From an uncultured Bacteroidota bacterium (lineage in GTDB: Bacteria; Bacteroidota; Bacteroidia; Bacteroidales; P3): a stretch of DNA of 35,945 nt. Under the pieces are notes generated by a model, which saw only the letters and a list, made by a program, of their open reading frames with translations, had not been told where the DNA came from and did not search any database. Shown here piece by piece: positions 6,317 to 25,756 of the stretch (position 1 is its first letter; each line of letters opens with the position of its first letter). Where the stretch lies: contig CADBOG010000146.1 in assembly GCA_902796265.1 (NCBI GenBank), positions 1 through 35,945 of the forward strand, given 5' to 3'. The position numbers and the translations under genes are program-made.

Positions 6317-9300
6317 TTAGAATGAGAAACGGACGGTGATACCGCCTTTGGTAGTGGAGTTGGGGAAGGCGTTGCTGATATAGGGTTTGTTGATGTTTGT
6401 CTGGAAGAAGGCGCGGAGAGTGAGGGTGGTGCTGAGCGCATATTCGGCACTGACTTCAGCCATCCATACTTTTGAGCCAGAAGATATCTGGTTGGTGTTC
6501 TGGTTGATTTTGCGTATCATGGTCATGTTGCTGTTGTAGGTGATGTTGGCTTGCAGCACGAGGTCGCTCTTCAGATGGTGGGTCTTGTCGCCGGCCTTGA
6601 TATGGAACTCAAGGTCTTTGAAGCGGTAGCCAGTACCAAAAGTGATACCGTCGCGGTAAGTCTCGGTAAGCTGGTTGTTGGAGAAACTCAAGCCAAGGTT
6701 GCGGCTCTTCTGAATGGAGAGTTTGAAGTTGAAGCTGTTGACCATGTTGACGCTGAGCATGATGAGAGGGCTGAACTGTTCGCTTAGGATGACACCATCC
6801 ATGCTCACAGGAGCTATGTAGTCGCCGTTGTTGTTGGTAATGGTTTCGGTGCCATAGTCGTAACCTTCGGTTATGGCACTGATGGCTGCATCAGTGTAGA
6901 AATTGCCAACACTGTAGGTAGAGCTGTATTTGTGTGAAATGGAGATGTTAGTAAACCATTTCTTAAGGAATTCAATCTTGCTGAGACCGTTGTAGTTGAT
7001 GCTCCAGTTAGGCATTGGCATCTTCATGAAGGGCGAGAAGCTCTTGCTGTCTTTGCCCATATAGGTGGAGAGGAATGCTGTGAGGAGTACTGTCTGTTGG
7101 TTGGCACCGTAGCCGGCAGGGTAGTAGAGACCGTTCATAGTGTCGCGAACCATCTGGTCGCAGTAGGGGTCGGGGTTGAGGTCGGCGAGGCTCATGGCTA
7201 TGTCGGTTCGAGAATCGACAAACTGTCTGAAGAGTTCATCGCGGTCTTTGAACATTGTTTGGAATGCCCATGTCGTCGTGGTGTAAGAGCCTCTGGTCAT
7301 AGGCGAGAGCGGACCTTCAACATAACCCGATGCATTGCTATACTTGTAGTAATATTCTTGGTGCGACGAGTAGTTTTGGTTGGCAGAGAGCTCTATGCGG
7401 AAGTCGCGTAGAGGTTCTACTGTGGCTTGGAGAGTGATGACGCGATTGCGATTGCCCAGGTTCGGGGTGTTCATGAGAGTGTCCTGCGACAGCAAGTCGT
7501 CGCGAAGCAGACTCTCGATGGTGCTATTCTGGATAGATGTGTTATTGATATCGAAAGAAGAATTGTCGGGCAATCCAAGCACGAATGAGGCTCCGGGAGC
7601 CCAATGGTTGGAGGGGTCAAGACCTACTATGCGGCTCTCGCCCATGAAGCCAGCAATGGTAGCACCGAAAGTGTTGTTGTATTGGAAGTTGATATTCTTA
7701 ACAGAGGTGGCAAGGCGAAGTCCGAAATAGGCAAGGTCTTGCAGTCGCTCTTGTAGCTGTGCTTTGCGTAGGGAGTCGGCTACACGATCGTCAGCTTTGC
7801 GTTGTTCGAGACCACGTTTCTTGTCGAGTTCGTTCTTGTCTTTGTCGGCATCTTTGCCTTTCTTATTGACCTCATTCTTCTTGGGAGGCTTCTTTGCGTA
7901 GGCTTTCTTGAGGAGTTTCGATTTGTTGTAGAGAGTCTGGAAGTTGCCTTGAGCACTAAGGGAGATGACGGTATTGTTGCTTATGACGGCACCTTGGTCG
8001 GCAAGAGCGAGGGTGGTTCCGAGGAAGTTGTAATTGGTGCGGTAGGTGATGGGAGTGCGCAGAAAATCCATGTAGGGCAGCTTGTTGATAGGCAAATCCC
8101 ATGATATGTTGATGTTCTGCAGGAAGTTTTGCATAGTGCCTCCATGCAAGATATCTCTCCATAGCGAGTCGCTGGAGCTGCGGTCAACCATTCCAGGCGG
8201 TTCATCTATGCGTGCATTGGCAGTAGCGTCGTAAGTGATGTGGAAACTGCGTGCCAAGTCGTACTGCACGTTATATTGACGTTGCCATGTGAACTGCTTG
8301 AAGTAGGTAGGGTTCATGATAACGAGGGCAGCACTTTTGTTGCGGAGCAGAGTCTCCTCGTTGTCGCGATAGATTTCGGTGCTGAAGCTGATGTTCTTAG
8401 GTTGATAGTAGATGTTAAAGTCCTTGACAAACTTCAGATTCTTGTTTTGGAAGGGCTTCATCTTCTCGAAAGGCTTAAACTGTTTCGGCTGGTTGACAGC
8501 GAAATTGTAGGTAAGTCCGCCACGATGTTGGTCTTTGTTGTAGTATTCTATATCGTCGTCGCTGGAGCGTTCACCGCTGTAGGCATACGAGACAGAGAAG
8601 TTGGCGATATCGTAGAAGTGAGGCTTCAATGCCGACTTGCCTGTGCGGTCTTTGCGGATATTGGTAAGGGTGATGTTGGTGGTGGATTTACGTTGTTGTG
8701 TCATCTTGCGCACAGAGTCGCGTTCCGCCATAGTCTTATAGGTCTTGAGATCATCCTTGAGTTTCACATCAGGATCGAGAGGGTTGTATTCGGGGCTACC
8801 AATCTGGTTGTTATAGTCGACATAGAGTGGGATGTGCACTCCCCAGTCTTCGGGAAAGAACTTGCCCACCTCGAGGTTGAGGGTCGTTTGAAGATTAAAG
8901 GTATTTATTAATTCCAGCTTGTTGAGTTTGTCCTCGAGGTTACCGAATCCAGATGTAGTATATGAGCTGTAGAGTGAGAGGTTGCCGATATCGGCGAGGT
9001 TGGTGCGAGCCAACGCCATAGCAGCCCATCCGCCGTTATTGATAAAATCGGAGAGACGCAGCTCATTAATCCACACTATGGCGCTCTTAGGCATCATGTC
9101 GCCAGCATCGTCCAGCGTCTGCTTGCGGGGATTGCGTACTCCCACCATGATAACCTTCACTTTTCCGAGGTTTGGTGACCCCATGACTGTATAGCGATGG
9201 CCATCTGCTATTTCGCTATAGAGAGAAGTGCTGTTATATTCCAGTTCACCATTGCGGATATGTCGGTTGCGGTTGGTCTTGATTTCGACCATCTTCTGAA

Positions 9301-12300
9301 GGTCAATCTCAACATTGTTGGCATCAGGCCAAATGATATCTTTGCTTTCGAACGAAGTTCCCCATGGGGTGAGTTGCAGCGGCACCTCGTATTCGTAGTA
9401 GTTGCTGGTGTAGTCGCTGCCGAGACGTACAAAGAGGGTCAGGTCGCCGTCGTTGAGGTTTTCTGTCTCGAATTTCTTCTCGGCGTGGACAAACATCTTC
9501 ATCTTGCCGTAGTAGCGAAGGTCATACTGCGAATTGCGGTAGATGGCGCGGGCGTCGCCAGGATTGAGTTCCTGGATGTTGAGTTCGAGAGCCTGTTCGT
9601 TAAGTTCGGTGTATGCCGACGAGGTGGAGTACCAAGACTCACGCTCAATGTTGGGAGGCAGGTTGTAGGGTACTGGCTGACGCGAACCGTTCTCCTCAAT
9701 GTTGACGGTGCTGAGGGTGAAGGTTGTGTTCTCGCCCATGCCGGTGGGGTAGTCGCCAGGTTGCAGAAGGTCCTCGCTGTATTTGCGCCATGTGCCATAC
9801 ACCAGCTCGAGGGTGGCGAAACGCAGTATGACAGGTTCCTCGAATCCGTTGAGGAACATACGCATGAAACGTATCGACTGGAATCCGTTGATGTTGCCAA
9901 TCTTCTGGTCGGGTTCGCGTATTGGGATACGGAACTGATACCAGCGGCATGTTGTCGTGGTGCCATTGGCAAGTTGCACATTGCGGGCTTCCTGTATGTC
10001 GACGATATGGTTCTGACCTATGACCATCTGGTTGGGTCGCAGGTTGATGACATATTGGTAGTAGTTCTCGCTCTCGCTGAGGGTGTTGTCGCGGTTGATG
10101 TCCTCAATGTTAGGATAGGAAGAGCCCTCAGTAGAATAGTCTTCAGGATTGTCGGCATCGCTCACCGAGTTGCCTTCAGGGTTGTTATAGTATTTGTAGC
10201 GGTCGTTGATTTTGACATTATTCTGGTCGTAGTAAGAGCTACGGAAATAGCGGAAGTCATCACTTGAGGGGTCAGCGGCAGCCATCTGGTAGGCTTGCGA
10301 CGAAGTGCCGTGCAAGAGAGCTATACTCTGCAAGTAGTCGGCAAAGAAGCTCTGCTCATCTCCGAGGTCGTTGGCGCTGCTAAGACCATCGTAGCCGATA
10401 TCCTGATAGTGGCGAGAAGCCTCGTTGTTGTCGAAAGCGTTGACCACGGCTTGCATCTTGGCAACGCGACCCCAGATGGTGGTGTCGACAGGATTGGAGG
10501 CAAAAGCTTCATCTGTGTTTGCCGTAGGAAGGCCGTTCTCAAAGGCTTTGCGACCGTCGCGGAGGATGTCCTCGCTGATGTCACCCAAGTTGATATAGAG
10601 TCGTCCGCCCTCCTTAGAGTCGTCATGCTCGCCTGTCGTGGGGTCGATGAAGGGGTCCATGAGCCAAAACTCTATTGTCTCGATGTTTTGGCTTTCGAAA
10701 TCGGTGTAGGTCAGCTCGCGCATGATACCGCCCCAGCGGCTTTTGGGGTTGTTGAGGAATCCGTTTTGGTCGATACCGGAGCTGAAGGCTGTCGGTGCCA
10801 CATCGTAGTTGTAAGGTCCTTTTTCTGATGGATAGAAGGCGAGGTTGAGCTCGAAGACGCGGTTGTTCTCACCAGCAGCGATGCTCTTGTTTGGAAAGAC
10901 CTCCTTCTGGTCAATTTGGCGGGCGTAGGGATGAGAGCGGTCGTTCTCGTCGATGTTTTCAGGACAGTTGCTTTGGAAGAAGGTGTTGCTCACGCTGTAC
11001 CACGCTAGCTTAGCGCGATTGAAACCGTATGCCAATCCTGTGCCAGGACCCGTCTCGGGGAAGAGCGCCAGCGAGTTGCGGTAATCCTGTGGCGTAGAGG
11101 CCAGATGCCAGAATGAATAGCCTTTTAGGTCAATATTGCTCTCAGCTCCCTCGAAATCATCGATATAGGTTACCTTGCCGTCGTCGCTGCCAGTATTGGC
11201 CATACCGGGAATGAAGTGAGCAAACTCTGCCTGTAGTGTTAGGGTAGAGGGTGCTTTGGTTTGGATTCCAGGCAGCTTGTCAATGATTTTGGTGATTAAG
11301 GGAACGTCGTGACGATAGTTGAAGTCGATGCCCCAGATGGAGTTGCTTGTGGGTTCGTCGCCGAAATTGTTTTTCTGTGTTAACGGCTTTTCTCTCAGGT
11401 TCATGAATGTGGCACCGAGGTTGATGTCGGGGTCGAACTCATAGTTGAGGTGCAAACCCAGCATGGTTTTGGTCATCATGCTGAAAGAGCTGTTTTCAGA
11501 GCTGACGCTGATGGGGGTGCCAGATGCCAGCAGGCTTTCGTTGATGATACGTACCGTACCCATAGTGTAGTCGACGGTGTAGTCAACATTTTCTATGAGT
11601 GGCATACCTCCGGCAGTAACAGAGACAGAACCTTGAGTGACGCTGTATCCCAACTGAATCTCTCCACTCACAGAACTGGTGTAATAACCCTCGAGGTAGA
11701 ACTTGTTCTTGTCGGCATACTGTTGCGCAAGTGTTTGTGTCATAGTGTACAGCGAGTCGAAGCAGTAGCGGTTGGCAAGCGTGTTGTCACCAAGCATTTC
11801 GCGGAGGTCTTTGCCGAAGGGCTCCACATAAGGGAAGAAGATTCGACCTGTCGTTGCCTGGATGGTACCTCCCTTATAAGCAGCGCTGTCGAACCAGTCA
11901 AAGACTCCATCGGGATAATAGTAGCTCTGCGAGGCATCCATACGGTCAAGACCAAAGACCTGCACCAAGGGAGTAGCTTCGAGGGGACCTTCGGTGAAGT
12001 AGCCGATACCTACACCACCTTCTGGATTCTCATAAAGGACGTTGAGTCGGAAATTATCGCGGCTTATCTGTGTGCTTTTCAGGAAGTAGACATTCTTCAT
12101 CATCAGCTTCCATAGAGGGCTGCGGCTATTCACGGCCGACCCCTTGATAAGTTTGACGATAAGGGTATTGGGGTCGTTGACACCATCGGTGGTAAGTTCT
12201 CCTACCTGATAAACAGTTGTGTCGCCAATCACTTGATATTGAAATGCTACAGCCAATATCTGGTCGTTGGCAAGAGGCTGTGAAAGGGTGATGAATCCCA

Positions 12301-13573
12301 GCTGGGAGTTGAATGTATATTCATTAGAATTAAGCAGACGAGCACTCTCAACTTTCTCGTAGTCTTTGCCGCCTGAGAATCCGAGACCTTCCATATAGGA
12401 GCTGATGCTGTTGACGCTGCGTACTGCCGAAGTGTTGATAAGTTGCATGAGGTTGTTGCTGCGATAGCCGTCGGGGCGCACCGAAGTGCCAGCATAGACG
12501 CCTGGCGACGAAGTGACGTGCTCGCCAAGGTCGGTGAGAGCCAAGATGTTGCGGTTGTTGGTTACGGCAGCACCGATATTTGTGCGCCACACCTCAAGGC
12601 GTATAATCTTGATATTGCTGTTGACCACGGGAAGGGTCGACATAGCCTTGTTGTAGTTGTCGTAGAAGTACTGGGCGATGAAGTAGTGGCGGTTCTCTTC
12701 GTACTCGTCGGCACGAATCTCGAACTCTTGTGCCGATGCGCCGCCTTGTACCTGCATGTTTTCTGTTGAGGTCTCCTTTTGGCTGAAAACTGCATCGACG
12801 GTCAGTTTGCCGAATTTCAGTTTCGAGTGGACACCAAAGAGCCTCTGGCTACCCTTGATGAGGGTGGTGTTGAGTGGAAACGAGATATCGGCAGCTTCCA
12901 GAAGTTGGATGATGTCATCCTCTTTGCCCTCATATTTCAGTTTTATCTGATTCTCGAAGTCGAAGGTTGCCTGTGTGTTCCAATTGATGTCGGTATTGAT
13001 GAGGTCGCCAATCTTTGCATTGAGTGTCAGCTGGATATTCTCGTCGAAGTCAAAGTTGGTGACGCTGCGACGGCTTTCGTCAATAGATGGGTTATTGGTG
13101 TAGTTGTTGACCATTTGTAGCGTAAGGTCGGCACTCCCCGAAGGGGTTATCTTGATTTCGGGCATCTCCTTGAGACTCTCCAGCTTGCGACTTATCTCGT
13201 TGAATCCGGGTATCTTGCTAAGCAATCCCTCTTCGCCGCCTCCTGTTGCGCTGTTTTGCTCCAGTTTCTCTCCCCAAAAGTCGTTCATCAGTTGTCCCAT
13301 GCGGTAATCTTGATACTCTTGGAAGGACATATATTGGCGGCTGATGACTACGTCGCCAACCTTGGTAATCTTCACATATCCATGCACATCGGGGTCGTAC
13401 TCAACTGTCGTAGTCATGTTCGACGGATTGTTGAGGTACATAGGGCTTTGCGGTTGGTCGCTTCCTGTCGAAGGAATGGGGAAGTGGAGCTCGGTGCCAG
13501 AGCTGTCAGGAACGTCTGGTTCAACTTGCGCCATTGCAGGAGCAGCGATCAGCACTAAAGCCAACAAAACCAT
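6317..13573 (-). CDS. sprA: T9SS outer-membrane translocon protein SprA (Sov)
   Basis: SprA/Sov forms the giant outer-membrane beta-barrel pore through which T9SS cargo leaves the periplasm. 2418 residues fits the family. Recognisable regions are the N-terminal SprA motif (YISRQYMSF-type, here VVISRQYMSFQEYQDYRMG), repeated beta-rich blocks such as LGLHLNYEFDPDINLGATF, VTYIDDFEGAESNIDLKGYSFWHLASTP, KSAIVWINELRLSDF, and a C-terminal strand ending GGITVRFSF. A Lys/Asp-rich insertion lies near residues 1885-1945. The first ATG leaves a short signal peptide (MVLLALVLIAAPAMAQ) without the usual basic residues. In-frame codons before it would encode a more typical n-region (AHRLTVIFRC) but contain no ATG, GTG or TTG. 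Next to ruvA, as often seen in Bacteroidota. Confidence 0.96.
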   Translation of the reverse strand: MVLLALVLIAAPAMAQVEPDVPDSSGTELHFPIPSTGSDQPQSPMYLNNPSNMTTTVEYDPDVHGYVKITKVGDVVISRQYMSFQEYQDYRMGQLMNDFWGEKLEQNSATGGGEEGLLSKIPGFNEISRKLESLKEMPEIKITPSGSADLTLQMVNNYTNNPSIDESRRSVTNFDFDENIQLTLNAKIGDLINTDINWNTQATFDFENQIKLKYEGKEDDIIQLLEAADISFPLNTTLIKGSQRLFGVHSKLKFGKLTVDAVFSQKETSTENMQVQGGASAQEFEIRADEYEENRHYFIAQYFYDNYNKAMSTLPVVNSNIKIIRLEVWRTNIGAAVTNNRNILALTDLGEHVTSSPGVYAGTSVRPDGYRSNNLMQLINTSAVRSVNSISSYMEGLGFSGGKDYEKVESARLLNSNEYTFNSQLGFITLSQPLANDQILAVAFQYQVIGDTTVYQVGELTTDGVNDPNTLIVKLIKGSAVNSRSPLWKLMMKNVYFLKSTQISRDNFRLNVLYENPEGGVGIGYFTEGPLEATPLVQVFGLDRMDASQSYYYPDGVFDWFDSAAYKGGTIQATTGRIFFPYVEPFGKDLREMLGDNTLANRYCFDSLYTMTQTLAQQYADKNKFYLEGYYTSSVSGEIQLGYSVTQGSVSVTAGGMPLIENVDYTVDYTMGTVRIINESLLASGTPISVSSENSSFSMMTKTMLGLHLNYEFDPDINLGATFMNLREKPLTQKNNFGDEPTSNSIWGIDFNYRHDVPLITKIIDKLPGIQTKAPSTLTLQAEFAHFIPGMANTGSDDGKVTYIDDFEGAESNIDLKGYSFWHLASTPQDYRNSLALFPETGPGTGLAYGFNRAKLAWYSVSNTFFQSNCPENIDENDRSHPYARQIDQKEVFPNKSIAAGENNRVFELNLAFYPSEKGPYNYDVAPTAFSSGIDQNGFLNNPKSRWGGIMRELTYTDFESQNIETIEFWLMDPFIDPTTGEHDDSKEGGRLYINLGDISEDILRDGRKAFENGLPTANTDEAFASNPVDTTIWGRVAKMQAVVNAFDNNEASRHYQDIGYDGLSSANDLGDEQSFFADYLQSIALLHGTSSQAYQMAAADPSSDDFRYFRSSYYDQNNVKINDRYKYYNNPEGNSVSDADNPEDYSTEGSSYPNIEDINRDNTLSESENYYQYVINLRPNQMVIGQNHIVDIQEARNVQLANGTTTTCRWYQFRIPIREPDQKIGNINGFQSIRFMRMFLNGFEEPVILRFATLELVYGTWRKYSEDLLQPGDYPTGMGENTTFTLSTVNIEENGSRQPVPYNLPPNIERESWYSTSSAYTELNEQALELNIQELNPGDARAIYRNSQYDLRYYGKMKMFVHAEKKFETENLNDGDLTLFVRLGSDYTSNYYEYEVPLQLTPWGTSFESKDIIWPDANNVEIDLQKMVEIKTNRNRHIRNGELEYNSTSLYSEIADGHRYTVMGSPNLGKVKVIMVGVRNPRKQTLDDAGDMMPKSAIVWINELRLSDFINNGGWAAMALARTNLADIGNLSLYSSYTTSGFGNLEDKLNKLELINTFNLQTTLNLEVGKFFPEDWGVHIPLYVDYNNQIGSPEYNPLDPDVKLKDDLKTYKTMAERDSVRKMTQQRKSTTNITLTNIRKDRTGKSALKPHFYDIANFSVSYAYSGERSSDDDIEYYNKDQHRGGLTYNFAVNQPKQFKPFEKMKPFQNKNLKFVKDFNIYYQPKNISFSTEIYRDNEETLLRNKSAALVIMNPTYFKQFTWQRQYNVQYDLARSFHITYDATANARIDEPPGMVDRSSSDSLWRDILHGGTMQNFLQNINISWDLPINKLPYMDFLRTPITYRTNYNFLGTTLALADQGAVISNNTVISLSAQGNFQTLYNKSKLLKKAYAKKPPKKNEVNKKGKDADKDKNELDKKRGLEQRKADDRVADSLRKAQLQERLQDLAYFGLRLATSVKNINFQYNNTFGATIAGFMGESRIVGLDPSNHWAPGASFVLGLPDNSSFDINNTSIQNSTIESLLRDDLLSQDTLMNTPNLGNRNRVITLQATVEPLRDFRIELSANQNYSSHQEYYYKYSNASGYVEGPLSPMTRGSYTTTTWAFQTMFKDRDELFRQFVDSRTDIAMSLADLNPDPYCDQMVRDTMNGLYYPAGYGANQQTVLLTAFLSTYMGKDSKSFSPFMKMPMPNWSINYNGLSKIEFLKKWFTNISISHKYSSTYSVGNFYTDAAISAITEGYDYGTETITNNNGDYIAPVSMDGVILSEQFSPLIMLSVNMVNSFNFKLSIQKSRNLGLSFSNNQLTETYRDGITFGTGYRFKDLEFHIKAGDKTHHLKSDLVLQANITYNSNMTMIRKINQNTNQISSGSKVWMAEVSAEYALSTTLTLRAFFQTNINKPYISNAFPNSTTKGGITVRFSF

Positions 13574-20672: not shown

Positions 20673-23012
20673 ATGAAGACAAAAACACTCCTTTTGCTCA
20701 TCTCCTTGCTCTTTTGTGGCAGGATTATTGCCCAAAATGGTGTTGCCGACAGCATCGACGCTCTCCATTACGACTTACAACTTGATATCGGAAACCTGCA
20801 TAATAGGCAGATTTCAGGGTCGGCTGCCGTCACAATGCGTATATTGCGTCACGTCGATAGCCTTGCCCTCGAACTATGCCCCTCGACGATTGATTCGGTG
20901 CTTGTTGACGGCATCAACATCCCCTTTAACTACGACCAGCAACATCGCTTGCTGACCACACATTTCGGTGGCTCTGTTGGCGATACTGTGACTATGACTG
21001 TCTTCTACCGCAAGGGTCAGCATGTTATGCCGCAGGAATGGGGCGGTTTCTACTTCGACGACAATATCTACTACAATCTCGGCATAGCCATATACGAATA
21101 TCCCCATAATGCCGGCAAGGCGTGGTTCCCGTGCCGCGACAACTTTACCGACAAAGCCACCTATAGTTTGCGCATAACCGCAAAACCCGGCTGGAGGGCG
21201 ATATGCAGCGGTGTGAAGACAGGTGAGGTTGAATATGCCGACGGCAGCCTTATGACTGCTTGGAGCCTCAATCATCCGACACCTACCTACCTCGTTGGCG
21301 TCGCTGTGGCTCCTTTCCATATTATTGAACGTGTTTATGAAAGTGAATACGCCACCTATCCCGCTATTCTTGGTTTCATCGGTCACGACAGCACCAATGT
21401 GTGGCGAACTTACGAACACATGAGCAAAGTGATACCAATGTTCGAGCGTTGCTTCGGCCCTTACCGCTGGGACAGAGTTGGTTATGTCTCTACTACAAGG
21501 GGCTCGATGGAGCATGTGGCCAATATCGCCTTTACCACCAACTGTATGTCATCGCAGCAAGAGCCTTGCCTCGCGACGATGAGCCATGAGTTTGCCCATT
21601 CTTGGTTCGGCAACCTCATTACATGCACCACCAGTAAGGATATGTGGATAAATGAGGGTGGTGCCTCCTTCTGTGAGGAGGTCGCTATTCAGGCAATCAC
21701 CCAAGATGAAGATTCTCTCCATTATCGTGACTACGCTCGCCATAATCTTCGCAATGTGTTGCTTACCACTCATCTTTCGGACGGAGGATTCAAACCGCTT
21801 TACGGGCAGACACCGCAATATACTTATGGTTCAACGGTGTATAATAAAGGTGCCACCGTTTGGCATTCACTTCGTGGATATATGGGTGATAAATTGTTCT
21901 ATTCCTCTTTGCGCCGTCTCTTCGAAAGTGCAGCCTTCAAGAATCTGGATAGTTGGCAGCTTCGCGACAGCCTTTCGGCATATAGTGGCATCGATCTTAC
22001 CGACTTCTTCGACTTTCATGTCTTCCGCCCTGGGTTCGTTGATTATGTTATAGATTCTCTCGAACAGTCAGCCAATTCGACAACAATTCATCTACGCCAG
22101 AAGCTCTATGGTACTGATACCATGATGGATGGCAATCGCGTATGGGTTACCTTCTTCTCGCAAAATATGGAGTCAGAGAAACGGCTTGTGACCTTTGATG
22201 GCGAGTCGACTGCCGCTACCTTCCAGTTGCCTTTTGAGCCAGCATTCGCCATAGTTGACTTTGATGAGGAACTCTCGAAAGCTGCCCTGGCACAACAGAC
22301 AACAATCAAGACAAAAGGTTCTGTGGTGATGGATGATGCCCTCTGTCGTATCGATACCCGCAAAGTGGTTGATGGCGATAGTGCATGGCTGCATGTCACC
22401 CACCATTGGTCGAGCCCCGATACTAGCCTTAGTCCTCAGATATTGAAGATGGCCGACCGCTACTGGACAGTCGAAGGCCGCATTCCTGACGGATTCCTTA
22501 TGTCTGGCATGTTTTATTATAGCCGTATGGGCGATGACTACACTCTCGACGACAATCTTATAACGTCTACTTCCGATTTCGGAATCCTGCGTCTTATGTA
22601 CCGTCGTGATGCTAGCGAAAATTGGCGTGTTGCCACCTCGCGTCACACCGACGATATCTCGCAGGGTTACTTCGTCAACACTACCCTTAAACTTGGCGAA
22701 TATACTCTCGCACTTATCGACACCAGCTATGTCTCCATAGAGGTTCCTGTCGATGGTTCATTTCTGGACATTTGCCCCAACCCATCTAACGGAAGAATAG
22801 TTGTCAAGTCGTCTATCGGTTCAACTGTTAAACAATATGATGATTCATTTATTCTGGAGGTAATCAATCCTGCAGGACAAATGGTTAAGCGTTTTAGCGA
22901 GGTTGGTTGCGGTAAAGAATTAGAACTCGGGCTCCCCGCAGGCTTCTATGTTGTGAAGGTCTTGAACCCCAATGGGAAACTCTTAGTGAGCAAAAAAATA
23001 CAGATTTTTTGA
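20673..23012 (+). CDS. M1 family aminopeptidase secreted by T9SS (type A sorting tail)
   Basis: 779 residues. Signal peptide MKTKTLLLLISLLFCGRIIAQ. The M1 N-terminal beta domain (about 25-220) is followed by the catalytic domain with the zinc site HEFAH (His305, Glu306, His309), an 18-residue spacer and Glu328. The exopeptidase motif is GSMEH (277-281) rather than the usual GAMEN. The last ~80 residues, from FLDICPNPSNGRIVV to the end KKIQIF, form a T9SS type A sorting domain with the PNP-NG pattern and the LPAGFYVVKV strand. The enzyme is therefore predicted to be exported through SprA and anchored to the surface or released. Role: cell-surface peptide degradation for nutrition. Confidence 0.92.
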   Translation: MKTKTLLLLISLLFCGRIIAQNGVADSIDALHYDLQLDIGNLHNRQISGSAAVTMRILRHVDSLALELCPSTIDSVLVDGINIPFNYDQQHRLLTTHFGGSVGDTVTMTVFYRKGQHVMPQEWGGFYFDDNIYYNLGIAIYEYPHNAGKAWFPCRDNFTDKATYSLRITAKPGWRAICSGVKTGEVEYADGSLMTAWSLNHPTPTYLVGVAVAPFHIIERVYESEYATYPAILGFIGHDSTNVWRTYEHMSKVIPMFERCFGPYRWDRVGYVSTTRGSMEHVANIAFTTNCMSSQQEPCLATMSHEFAHSWFGNLITCTTSKDMWINEGGASFCEEVAIQAITQDEDSLHYRDYARHNLRNVLLTTHLSDGGFKPLYGQTPQYTYGSTVYNKGATVWHSLRGYMGDKLFYSSLRRLFESAAFKNLDSWQLRDSLSAYSGIDLTDFFDFHVFRPGFVDYVIDSLEQSANSTTIHLRQKLYGTDTMMDGNRVWVTFFSQNMESEKRLVTFDGESTAATFQLPFEPAFAIVDFDEELSKAALAQQTTIKTKGSVVMDDALCRIDTRKVVDGDSAWLHVTHHWSSPDTSLSPQILKMADRYWTVEGRIPDGFLMSGMFYYSRMGDDYTLDDNLITSTSDFGILRLMYRRDASENWRVATSRHTDDISQGYFVNTTLKLGEYTLALIDTSYVSIEVPVDGSFLDICPNPSNGRIVVKSSIGSTVKQYDDSFILEVINPAGQMVKRFSEVGCGKELELGLPAGFYVVKVLNPNGKLLVSKKIQIF

Positions 23013-23183
23013 TTTTTAAGATTTTTTTTCATTTCCCCGTCAACTTTTTTGCCTTTTGATGTACACTATAAGGTGAATTAATTGTTTAATTCTTTCAATT
23101 ATTGAATAACCGTAAACCCATAAAACAGATTCGCCATCGACTTAGAATGCATCATAGAAGGTTGTCGCAAAGGCGACGCAGCT

Positions 23184-23684
23184 ATGCAGAAAGCTCTGTA
23201 TGACCGCTTTAGTGGCAAGTTCTATGTGCTATGCCAACGTTATTCGCCTAATGACTCGGTGGCGCAGGAAGTTTTGAGTGACGGATTCTTATGTGTGTTT
23301 GAACAGATTAATAACTACAGAGGTGAAGGCTCTTTCGAAGGATGGATGCGTACTATTTTTCTCCGCTATGCGATACGTCGCTATAAACAGGAGAACCGAC
23401 ATGAGAAAGTCAATATTGATGAAGAGAACAAACTGCCACATGTTGTTAGCAACCATGAATCGCAACTTGATGTTCGCAAGGCACTCATGGATGCCATGCG
23501 GCAACTTCCTGCTATCGAACGCCAGACATTCAACCTGGTAGCCGTTGAGGGATACAAGTTGGATGAGGCTGCCAAGTTGTTGGAAGAGAACCTCTCTACA
23601 CTAAAGTCGCGATACTATAAGGTATTGCAGAAAATGAAGACAATGCTGACAAAAACATTAGGAGAAGAATACCTTAAGGAATAG
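23184..23684 (+). CDS. RNA polymerase ECF-like sigma-70 factor
   Basis: 166 residues from the first ATG. Region 2 is seen as RYSPNDSVAQEVLSDGFLCVF, GSFEGWMRTIFLRYAIRRYKQ; region 4 as LPAIERQTFNLVAVEGYKLDEAAKLL and STLKSRYYKVLQKMKTML, the helix-turn-helix that reads the -35 element. Both are typical of Bacteroidota ECF factors. The family's usual N-terminus (DLE-x-IIEGCRKGD) is encoded in frame just upstream (from 23136) but only ATC, TTA and ATA codons are there, so the true start may be non-canonical. The next gene encodes an anti-sigma-like protein, so the factor is probably held inactive at the membrane. The 171-bp gap upstream contains no strong promoter box. Confidence 0.92.
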   Translation: MQKALYDRFSGKFYVLCQRYSPNDSVAQEVLSDGFLCVFEQINNYRGEGSFEGWMRTIFLRYAIRRYKQENRHEKVNIDEENKLPHVVSNHESQLDVRKALMDAMRQLPAIERQTFNLVAVEGYKLDEAAKLLEENLSTLKSRYYKVLQKMKTMLTKTLGEEYLKE

Positions 23685-23793
23685 TGATAAAAGAACCTTT
23701 AACATCGCAACGAACAAATCAGTCATAGATGCTCATTTAGAGCTTGATATTTTTAGAATCTTTTGAATTAATTTCTTGTAAAGCTGGTAAAGA

Positions 23794-24714
23794 ATGAATA
23801 TAGAAGAAATAGCACACTCGGTTTTTGAGAATGCCTCACAGGAGCCTCCTAAAGAGGTGTGGGAGGGCATTGAAGCCAAGCTTCATGGCTCTTCTGCTGT
23901 CTCTAAAATGGGCAAACGTCGCTGGATATGGACAGCGGGGGCAGGTGCTGTTGTTGCAGCCGCCCTTGCTTTTGCAACATCATTTTATTATTCGAATTCG
24001 AAAAACAATCATGAACCTGTTGCCCAATTAACCAATATCGACTCGATAGTTGAAGTCCCCATTGACGCAAGGGTAGGGGATATCCAAAAGGAAACAGTTG
24101 GTGACGACTCGTTTGATAGTGAGGCTGTCAATAATAGTCACTCTATAGCAAGCACTAATAAGGCTATCAATACTAACGGTGGTGAAGTTCGAAAAGAAGC
24201 TGTTAAGAAATCTTCTGGCACGTCAGATGGCAAAATGGCTGTAGTGTCTAATGCTCCATCAAGAAGCAATTCATCTAACACTAATGTTGCTAAAACTGAA
24301 GTGACTCCAGTTGAGGATGATCAGGATTTCGACCTCCTTGAGTATCAGCTTTTATCGCACGAGTATGATATCCCTTCCGATTCTCGTTCTCAGGTCAAGA
24401 AGACTGACTCAAAGTCGGCTGAGCAATCTGAAAAGCCACAAGCCACCAAAGCTGAAGATCCAGCAATAAAAATCCCGAACATAGTATCCCCTAATGGAGA
24501 TGGGTATAATGATTGTTGGCGTATCCCCGACCTTGCAAGATATGGTAAAGCTTCCGTTCAGATTTTTACCGCAAGGAGCAAGCGTGTCTATTCGTCAGAC
24601 GACTATCGTGGAGAATTCTGTGGCGACGACCTCCCATCGGGCAACTATTTCTATGTGCTCACTATCCGTCATCTTAACTATACCAGACGTGGTGTCTTGG
24701 TAATCAAAAGGTAG
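23794..24714 (+). CDS. Anti-sigma-like single-pass membrane protein with T9SS type B sorting domain
   Basis: 306 residues. Residues 1-40 match the short cytoplasmic segment of Bacteroidota anti-sigma factors (SVFENASQEPPKEVWEGIEAKL). A basic KRRW precedes a single transmembrane helix (about 45-67), then a long Ser/Asn/Lys/Asp-rich periplasmic linker (68-222), then residues 225-306 form a gliding-motility-associated (CHU_C) C-terminal domain: PNIVSPNGDGYNDCWRIPDL, ASVQIFTARSKRVY, LPSGNYFYVLTI and GVLVIKR. That domain is normally the T9SS type B export signal of surface adhesins. Here it hangs from an inner-membrane anchor, next to a sigma factor (110 bp upstream). I infer a role in sensing T9SS state; the sorting domain may alternatively be a relic or a binding domain. 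Confidence 0.82.
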   Translation: MNIEEIAHSVFENASQEPPKEVWEGIEAKLHGSSAVSKMGKRRWIWTAGAGAVVAAALAFATSFYYSNSKNNHEPVAQLTNIDSIVEVPIDARVGDIQKETVGDDSFDSEAVNNSHSIASTNKAINTNGGEVRKEAVKKSSGTSDGKMAVVSNAPSRSNSSNTNVAKTEVTPVEDDQDFDLLEYQLLSHEYDIPSDSRSQVKKTDSKSAEQSEKPQATKAEDPAIKIPNIVSPNGDGYNDCWRIPDLARYGKASVQIFTARSKRVYSSDDYRGEFCGDDLPSGNYFYVLTIRHLNYTRRGVLVIKR

Positions 24715-24778: not shown

Positions 24779-25756
24779 ATGATTAATAAAACAGAAAAAT
24801 ATACCCTTCTTGCAAAGCAGATAGAGAGCTTGCTTTCTGACGAGAAAGATACTATTGCTGCAATGGCAAATGTCGCAGCATTGATACATGATACGTTTCG
24901 TTTCTGGTGGACAGGCTTTTATCGTGTTATAGATGGCGAATTGCTGCTTGGACCTTTCCAAGGCCCGGTGGCTTGTATGCACATAGGATATGGCAAAGGT
25001 GTCTGTGGTACAGCTTGGAAAGAACGTCGTAGCATCGTGGTACCTGATGTGGAGCAATTCCCTGGCCATATTGCATGTAGCAGCGAGAGCCGTAGTGAGA
25101 TAGTAGTTCCAGTCATTCAGCACGACAGAGTTGTTGCTGTGCTTGATATTGATAGTCGTGAACTAGGCACCTTTGATGAGATAGATAAAGAATGGTTGGA
25201 GAAGATTGTGCTTTCCTTGCCAGCTTTCAATTTGCCGGAAAGCGAGATATTTCTTGCTGCTGGATGCTTCTGGGGTGCAGAGAAATATCTTAAGCTGATA
25301 GAAGGTGTTACCTTTACAGAGGTTGGTTTCGCCAATGGCAACACCGATAATCCTACATATAAAGAGGTTTATACCGACCAGACGGGATATGCAGAGACGG
25401 TACACTTGCGCTATAACCCCACTATTGTGAGCCTGCGCTTCTTGCTTGAGATGTATTTAAAGGCGATTGACCCGACCAGCCTTAACAAACAGGGTGAAGA
25501 TGAGGGTACGCGCTACCGTACGGGTATCTACTATAATGACCCTGCAGACCTTCCCATTGTGGATGATGTTGTGGCAGAAGAGGCTAAGAAGTATGGTTTG
25601 CCGTTACAGGTCGAGGTGGAACCTTTACGCAATTTCTACCCCGCAGACGAATACCATCAGGATTATCTCGACAAGAATCCATCTGGTTATTGTCATCTAC
25701 CCATAGCTCTCTTTGAACTCGCCAGAAAAGCTAAAGACCCACATAAAAGCAATTAA
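24779..25756 (+). CDS. Fused free-methionine-(R)-sulfoxide reductase (GAF) and MsrA
   Basis: 325 residues. Residues 1-145 are a fRMsr (YebR/MsrC-type GAF) domain. Its three redox cysteines, Cys66, Cys76 and Cys100, match E. coli Cys84, Cys94 and Cys118 at a constant offset of 18, in the contexts GPVACMHIG, GKGVCGTAW and QFPGHIACSS. Residues 155-325 are a complete MsrA: catalytic Cys163 in GCFWG, then DQTGYAETVHL, DPTSLNKQGEDEGTRYRTGI and a probable resolving Cys305 (PSGYCHL). The enzyme should reduce both free Met-(R)-SO and Met-(S)-SO in the cytoplasm (no signal peptide). No MsrB is present nearby. The junction (about 146-155) is only a short linker with no stop or frameshift, so the fusion is genuine. 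Confidence 0.93.
   Translation: MINKTEKYTLLAKQIESLLSDEKDTIAAMANVAALIHDTFRFWWTGFYRVIDGELLLGPFQGPVACMHIGYGKGVCGTAWKERRSIVVPDVEQFPGHIACSSESRSEIVVPVIQHDRVVAVLDIDSRELGTFDEIDKEWLEKIVLSLPAFNLPESEIFLAAGCFWGAEKYLKLIEGVTFTEVGFANGNTDNPTYKEVYTDQTGYAETVHLRYNPTIVSLRFLLEMYLKAIDPTSLNKQGEDEGTRYRTGIYYNDPADLPIVDDVVAEEAKKYGLPLQVEVEPLRNFYPADEYHQDYLDKNPSGYCHLPIALFELARKAKDPHKSN

Follow-up and report, generated by a model that had tools for sequence, protein, structure and literature searches.

In the FlgM/sigma-28 system, an export machine handles the very anti-sigma factor that controls the late genes of that machine. In the Dma ('dual membrane-spanning') proteins reported from Bacteroides, an anti-sigma segment is followed by a membrane helix, a disordered tether and, at the C-terminus, a barrel, and the gene for an ECF21 sigma factor is adjacent (PMC13088901). 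T9SS C-terminal sorting domains (CTDs) are reported to direct export and to suffice for the export of fused proteins (PMC12618676). Type B CTDs are reported to use cognate PorP/SprF-like shuttles rather than PorV (PMC12618676, PMC9143113), and they are described as kept at the surface by PorP-like proteins, PG1035 being held by PorP-PorE (PMC9143113). ECF sigma factors are tied to T9SS in the PorXY-SigP system of Porphyromonas gingivalis, where the CTD-bearing PorA is reported to feed sigma signalling (PMC7712824), and in the SM6 ECF regulon described for Flavobacterium psychrophilum (PMC9723704). The matching of surface adhesin and enzyme supply to secretion capacity in T9SS bacteria is poorly known, and the reported circuits govern machinery genes. 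An anti-sigma factor bearing a T9SS sorting domain was not found described in searches of an open-access library (subscription papers and preprints lay outside the scope), and a preliminary description of the present locus gave no described function for such a pairing.

In this study, we analysed computationally a stretch of 35,945 nt (the window) from an uncultured Bacteroidota bacterium of gut/rumen type (Bacteroidales; P3; GCA_902796265.1, contig CADBOG010000146.1). The window encodes an ECF sigma factor followed by a protein that probably acts as its inner-membrane anti-sigma factor, with a Dma-like N-terminal half and a tethered sorting domain that would tie cargo expression to secretion capacity; this is the reading that we favour.

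Order of parts in the sigma/anti-sigma pair

Table 1. Features of the window (residue numbers refer to the anti-sigma protein)
Feature	Positions	Strand	Basis
sprA, T9SS outer-membrane translocon gene	6317..13573	-	PF14349, E 6.3e-178
M1 peptidase, upstream neighbour, borderline type A sorting domain	20673..23012	+	Profile matches
Promoter-like site CAACTTTTT-N-ACACTATA, type A motif, before sigma gene	23041..23070	+	Motif scoring
In-frame N-terminal extension of sigma factor	23124..23183	+	Open frame without ATG/GTG/TTG
ECF sigma factor gene	23184..23684	+	166 aa from first canonical start; TIGR02937, PF04542, PF08281
Anti-sigma N-terminal segment, residues 1-31, ...PPKEVWEGIEAKL	23794..23886	+	Homology to barrel-type Dma-like anti-sigmas; sigma binding predicted
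Anti-sigma membrane helix, residues 45-67	23926..23994	+	Hydropathy; helix 52-65 in AlphaFold model
Anti-sigma low-complexity linker, residues 68-224	23995..24465	+	pLDDT <50 over most
Anti-sigma T9SS type B sorting domain, residues 225-306	24466..24711	+	PF13585, TIGR04131; Foldseek
GAF-MsrA fusion, downstream neighbour	24779..25756	+	Pfam; neighbourhood comparison

Both open reading frames of the pair lie where the preliminary description had placed them. The sigma protein scores 64.9 bits with TIGR02937 (cut-off 42.9) and is also above cut-off with PF04542 and PF08281. The sigma proteins of relatives begin about 20 residues before the 23184 start, and the window carries ATC at the position of their ATG (TTG in L005/L060); its gene seems to have no canonical start there, so that either the start codon is an unusual one or the assembly is wrong at this point.

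The anti-sigma gene (23794-24714, coding 23794-24711) lies directly downstream and encodes 306 aa. No Sec signal peptide was seen at the N-terminus by hydropathy or sequence: the first 44 residues are hydrophilic and carry a conserved motif, and the sole hydrophobic segment of the N-terminal part, at 45-67, has a modest hydropathy peak (1.58 at 45-63, compared with 1.71-2.88 in the other 30 loci checked). Ordinary T9SS cargo was rejected as an identity for this protein because no signal peptide was seen and a sigma gene is adjacent. The C-terminus matches CHU_C (PF13585) over residues 225-303 with E 4.8e-18 and 65.5 bits (cut-off 27) and TIGR04131 over residues 225-306 with 43.0 bits (cut-off 35). 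The assignment of residues 225-306 to CHU_C thus stands, as does the originally described order of a sigma gene and then an N-terminal segment, helix, linker and type B sorting domain. The N-terminal part weakly matches the anti-sigma model NF052375 (E 1e-5, 25.6 bits, cut-off 100), and the protein matches no barrel family in Pfam.

An AlphaFold model built with 14 relatives, of mean pLDDT only 56.6, has further helices at 3-11 and 20-31; its pLDDT is below 50 at 33-51, 67-86 and 99-212, and blocks from residue 241 onward reach 83-95. The top Foldseek match in the PDB is a T9SS substrate CTD in a translocon complex (8glk_D, TMt 0.78), at E 2.3e-3 and hence short of E 0.001. At the sequence level, the family profile also detects the C-terminal end of GhpA, a grappling-hook protein (E 1.5e-7).

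The presence of sprA in the window is confirmed, and the peptidase said to be T9SS-exported is indeed an M1 peptidase directly upstream of the pair, with a sorting domain that is only borderline type A (TIGR04183 24.4, cut-off 23; Pfam 18.7, under its cut-off of 27). An M1 peptidase occupies this place in 6/6 type A neighbourhoods examined, and a fusion of a GAF domain with the methionine sulfoxide reductase MsrA stands beside the pair in 3/6. Large repeat-rich exported proteins, forming one cluster, are encoded near pairs in 7/21 neighbourhoods (L152, L154, L160, L161, L162, L163, L164); the two that were profiled contain BspA-type leucine-rich and InlB-like repeats (L163) and Ig-like domains (L162). 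PorP/SprF was not found among the 22 window ORFs scanned, and three PorP/SprF genes are located elsewhere in the genome. PorV had been suggested for modelling with the sorting domain, but the partners reported for type B CTDs are PorP/SprF-like shuttles (PMC12618676, PMC9143113).

Conservation and kinship with barrel-ended anti-sigmas

A first search with the window protein, made over 99 relatives, gave full-length relatives from the same genus, each with a sigma gene upstream. The census, made with a profile of alignment A2 (29 members), gave at least 63 full-length copies in at least 49/59 same-genus genomes among the matches listed. Two paralogous types can be distinguished across the 59 genomes, type A, to which the window protein belongs, with at least 14 copies and type B with at least 49, again among the matches listed. 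All 14 genomes with type A also have type B, including that of the window, whose type B anti-sigma lies at C47:8035-8922. A sigma gene is located just upstream on the same strand in 31/31 loci found via the anti-sigma. In a class sample of 247 genomes, at least 10 nearly full-length matches from five other families were among the matches listed, with a sigma gene just upstream in 9/9 full-length loci of other families and also in the tenth (L191). Three more families of the order have the fused architecture (L034, L035, L051), which is thus present in at least eight families besides the genus's own. A scan of genome contigs gave mostly cargo; among the 80 of 334 loci that were kept, four have the fused anti-sigma and a sigma gene, all in uncultured Bacteroidales (yak rumen, L192; UBA1223, L193; horse faeces, L198; buffalo caecum, L233). 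The genome of the window is a draft of 152 contigs, 82% complete, as might be expected if chance or an assembly error had joined an anti-sigma to a cargo tail, but the number of copies in the genus and the occurrence in other families rule this out, and we give it practically no credence.

The genome of the window has another sigma/anti-sigma pair, at locus L149 (G000:C47:7502-8922), whose sorting domain is of type B; a convergent gene for a type B cargo protein of ~1060 aa adjoins it and bears the window-type promoter motif. Type A copies have cysteines at 241 and 276 of the sorting domain, a possible disulfide; both are absent in L014, L016 and L017, and L013 is without the first only. Tandem copies of the N-terminal anti-sigma motif precede the helix in L091 and L092 (three copies) and in L093 and L099 (two copies), as though several sigma molecules might be bound by a single protein.

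The N-terminal half of A2 matches proteins of 350-470 aa without CHU_C in the family f42. A sigma gene adjoins 8/8 of these barrel-type candidates that were read, and of five proteins submitted to Pfam four pass the cut-off of a barrel family and one falls below. Residues 1-75 align with eight barrel-type anti-sigmas at an hhalign probability of 98.3 (E 1.2e-14), and an N-terminal HMM matches 8/8 of them with E values from 9e-10 to 5e-5. These matches, together with the differing C-termini, show a common N-terminal module and a different C-terminal one. Judged from sequence, the T9SS type B sorting domain is found where Dma-like anti-sigmas have the outer-membrane barrel, a comparison that rests on f42 proteins of the same layout and not on the B. 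thetaiotaomicron proteins themselves. A midpoint-rooted sigma tree (48 CTD-type rows and 8 of the barrel type, the latter exclusively from f42) gives no order for the C-terminal modules. Strict membership of Dma was rejected because the anti-sigma has no barrel. The pair is no isolated oddity and is better regarded as a conserved, T9SS-flavoured relative of the Dma architecture. The f42 genomes with a CHU_C match (L169-L180, L189, L190 and similar) mostly contain a single protein of ~230-300 aa ending in CHU_C, which recalls P. gingivalis PG1035.

The fused architecture is found in SprA-positive genomes as far as seen. The proposed check of co-occurrence with T9SS gave 0/31 SprA-negative f42 genomes with a full-length copy, as the sensor idea would predict, but is low in power because the 90 SprA-positive f42 genomes are also without the fused protein, the architecture being absent from f42 whether or not SprA is present. 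Among the class sample 8/247 genomes are SprA-negative, of which five have no match at all and G167 has an N-terminal match only; the matches of G136 and G154 lie outside those listed for the sample.

Promoter motifs and the genes behind them

Two promoter-like motifs, both read by eye first from the same sequences that were later scored, precede the sigma genes: AACTTTT-N13/14-CTACTA in the type A relatives of the window and GCAACAAA-N14-GTCTATA in type B. The type A motif scores a mean of 11.4/13 matches at 14 loci versus 9.0 in shuffled sequence, and the type B motif 12.1/15 at 25 loci versus 9.6; a few loci fit poorly. The site in the window is its only relaxed type A match. Among 354 loci its variant occurs only at the window locus (two overlapping loci) and in the same genome before the ~1060-aa type B cargo gene on C47, a relative of L320, L327 and L332; this cargo gene and the window sigma gene are both preceded by CAACTTTTT-N-ACACTATA. 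Across 59 whole genomes the type B pattern has 23 matches versus 2 for the reversed pattern; in the 14 genomes with type A, the type A pattern has 22 versus 7, a threefold excess only. The strict type A pattern has one site in the window's own genome, L330, without a sensible gene, and neither a relaxed type A nor a type B site was found at the three PorP/SprF gene loci of that genome (L146-L148). The motif before the sigma genes is common to other genes too, and autoregulation of the sigma factor is predicted.

Of the 23 type B sites, six precede the pair's own sigma gene. In nine of the other 17, the next gene begins 20-90 bases on, is complete and encodes a protein with a type B sorting domain; at L343 such a gene is second in line, and at L337 the gene is cut by the contig end, its start resembling the type B cargo family. 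L340 precedes a gene of 1580 aa with a C-terminus that, read from the sequence, resembles a type A domain, and L338, L349, L350, L352 and L353 have no assignable target or other proteins. Six of the 17 non-sigma sites thus have no readable target or precede genes for other proteins, and the contig-cut gene accounts for one more.

The evidence for type A is weaker and the targets are mixed. Four of the 22 sites precede a sigma gene and four a complete CHU_C cargo gene (L320, L327, L332, and L325 at 197 bases), and L329 precedes a cut gene of the same family as these cargo targets. Five lie before genes with type A-looking C-termini (L321, L322, L323, L328, L331), of which two were submitted to Pfam, L331 being above the cut-off and L321 below; L334 precedes a possible type A sorting-domain gene. 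In three genomes the site stands before a 478-aa exported thioredoxin-like protein (L317, L326, L333), identified by Pfam as DUF5106/DUF4369 in L317, the other two being alike by sequence. L318, L319, L324 and L330 have an unclear target or none.

Controls were performed on 40 upstream regions of cargo genes, selected by CTD score alone with short frames excluded, using a scoring matrix derived from the promoters of 14 type B sigma genes. Where the genome has the pair, sites scoring at least 12 were found in 16/32 cargo regions versus 1/32 on reversed sequence, and 12/32 reach p <= 0.01 against shuffles; three of the 32 regions were already pattern matches. Genomes without a detected pair have a site in 2/8 regions (G051 and G032, genomes 64% and 73% complete), the other six regions coming from G012, G013, G031 and G051. 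Sigma and cargo site variants agree within genomes (14.4 versus 11.9 of 18 positions, 0/5000 permutations) in a set of 21 cargo genes from 13 genomes, where 9/21 cargo sites are exact pattern matches and several weak ones are misplaced; in G007 an unusual variant is common to sigma and cargo. The shared promoter motif and these controls lend support to a link with T9SS cargo genes.

The sorting domains were compared using two profiles, one from the CTDs of 14 type A anti-sigmas and the other from those of 13 type B anti-sigmas, run on 21 target and 26 other C-termini. On the type B target CTDs the type B profile outscores the type A profile in 9/9 cases, by 45-67 bits; on the ~1060-aa type A targets the order is reversed in 3/3 cases, by 21-24 bits. 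Some cargo of type A neighbourhoods (L164, L165, L166, L168) likewise has a type B-like CTD, as does the cargo behind the type A site L325, so that domain matching is not clean for type A. These results bear on the possibility that the sorting domain serves only to hold the protein at the outer-membrane or peptidoglycan side, through a PorP-like protein, and that the pair senses envelope geometry or stress, the cargo regulon serving surface remodelling. We regard this as unlikely, yet deserving of some weight: the layout equals that of Dma, which may sense envelope geometry or stress, PorP-like proteins are reported to hold type B CTDs at the surface (PMC9143113), and the type A targets, which include both the thioredoxin-like proteins and type A cargo, are wider than one CTD class. 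Anchoring alone, however, leaves the likeness between the sorting domains of the type B targets and the anti-sigma's own unexplained.

The type B anti-sigma CTD has lost the NGDGxND motif, and in a PDB search its best matches are generic Ig/PKD-like folds, a T9SS CTD ranking 11th. The Ig-like domain might accordingly be an ordinary periplasmic sensor of a ligand or partner, re-used without contact with T9SS, with cargo genes as targets for unrelated reasons. We consider this improbable, since many cargo proteins of the same genus are also without the motif and look similar, so that its loss does not mark non-export; moreover, the motif is retained in 14/14 type A anti-sigma CTDs, and the architecture, so far as seen, is found in SprA-positive genomes.

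A possible secretion-to-transcription circuit and its known counterparts

Under our favoured reading, the sigma factor would activate its own operon together with a group of T9SS cargo genes. The sorting domain, on a linker of ~155 aa, would span the periplasm to the outer membrane and could be recognised there by the cargo-handling machinery, SprA with a PorP/SprF-like shuttle. Engagement of the CTD, or its idling while cargo fills the shuttle, would shift the state of the anti-sigma, possibly with proteolysis, and alter sigma activity in one direction or the other; cargo expression would then track secretion capacity. Being anchored in the inner membrane by its N-terminus, the protein cannot be released; given this tether and the cargo regulon, we take it as simplest that engagement of the CTD by shuttle or translocon is relayed to the sigma factor. 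The T9SS-sensor idea of the preliminary description accordingly gains from the conserved pair and from a predicted regulon containing T9SS cargo genes; the remainder of it we infer.

The long linker would also allow the CTD to pass SprA and be displayed outside, with the N-terminus still in the inner membrane, and to sense a cell-surface cue; CTDs are reported to suffice for T9SS export of fusions (PMC12618676). A chain threaded through the translocon would, however, plug it, and the protein has no surface domain beyond the CTD, which makes this reading very improbable. A more specific form of the favoured reading, attractive to us although we would not wager on it, is that each pair constitutes a private secretion-to-transcription circuit, in which the anti-sigma, leashed to the inner membrane, carries a decoy of the sorting domain of the cargo class switched on by its sigma factor, and occupancy of shuttle or translocon by that class is converted directly into gene expression. 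If so, paralogous pairs with differing sorting-domain subtypes and promoter specificities would provide separate feedback loops for each class of T9SS cargo. A secretion signal within an anti-sigma, coupled to a predicted cargo regulon, would connect outer-membrane transport directly with transcription in a way that can be tested, and the promoter motifs allow regulon calls in many uncultured Bacteroidota.

Among the known systems, Dma is alike in the order of its parts, the long disordered tether, the C-terminal domain directed to the outer membrane and the adjacent ECF sigma gene, whereas the window protein ends in a T9SS type B sorting domain and its predicted regulon includes T9SS cargo. 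The Dma idea, in which a single protein connects the two membranes with a sigma factor, would thereby be extended to an exchangeable outer-membrane module. Type B CTD cargo (SprB-SprF; PG1035-PorP-PorE) has the same C-terminal domain family as the anti-sigma, which, in contrast, is small, has a predicted cytoplasmic N-terminus, shows no signal peptide and is encoded beside a sigma gene rather than PorP/SprF. The targets reported for PorA-PorXY-SigP and SM6 are T9SS machinery genes, whereas those found here are cargo; PorA is described as a separate surface protein acting via a two-component system, and here the CTD is part of the anti-sigma itself. FlgM/sigma-28 resembles the proposed circuit in that an anti-sigma is handled by an export machine, but machine and protein are unrelated to those considered here, where the anti-sigma is membrane-anchored and not fully exportable.
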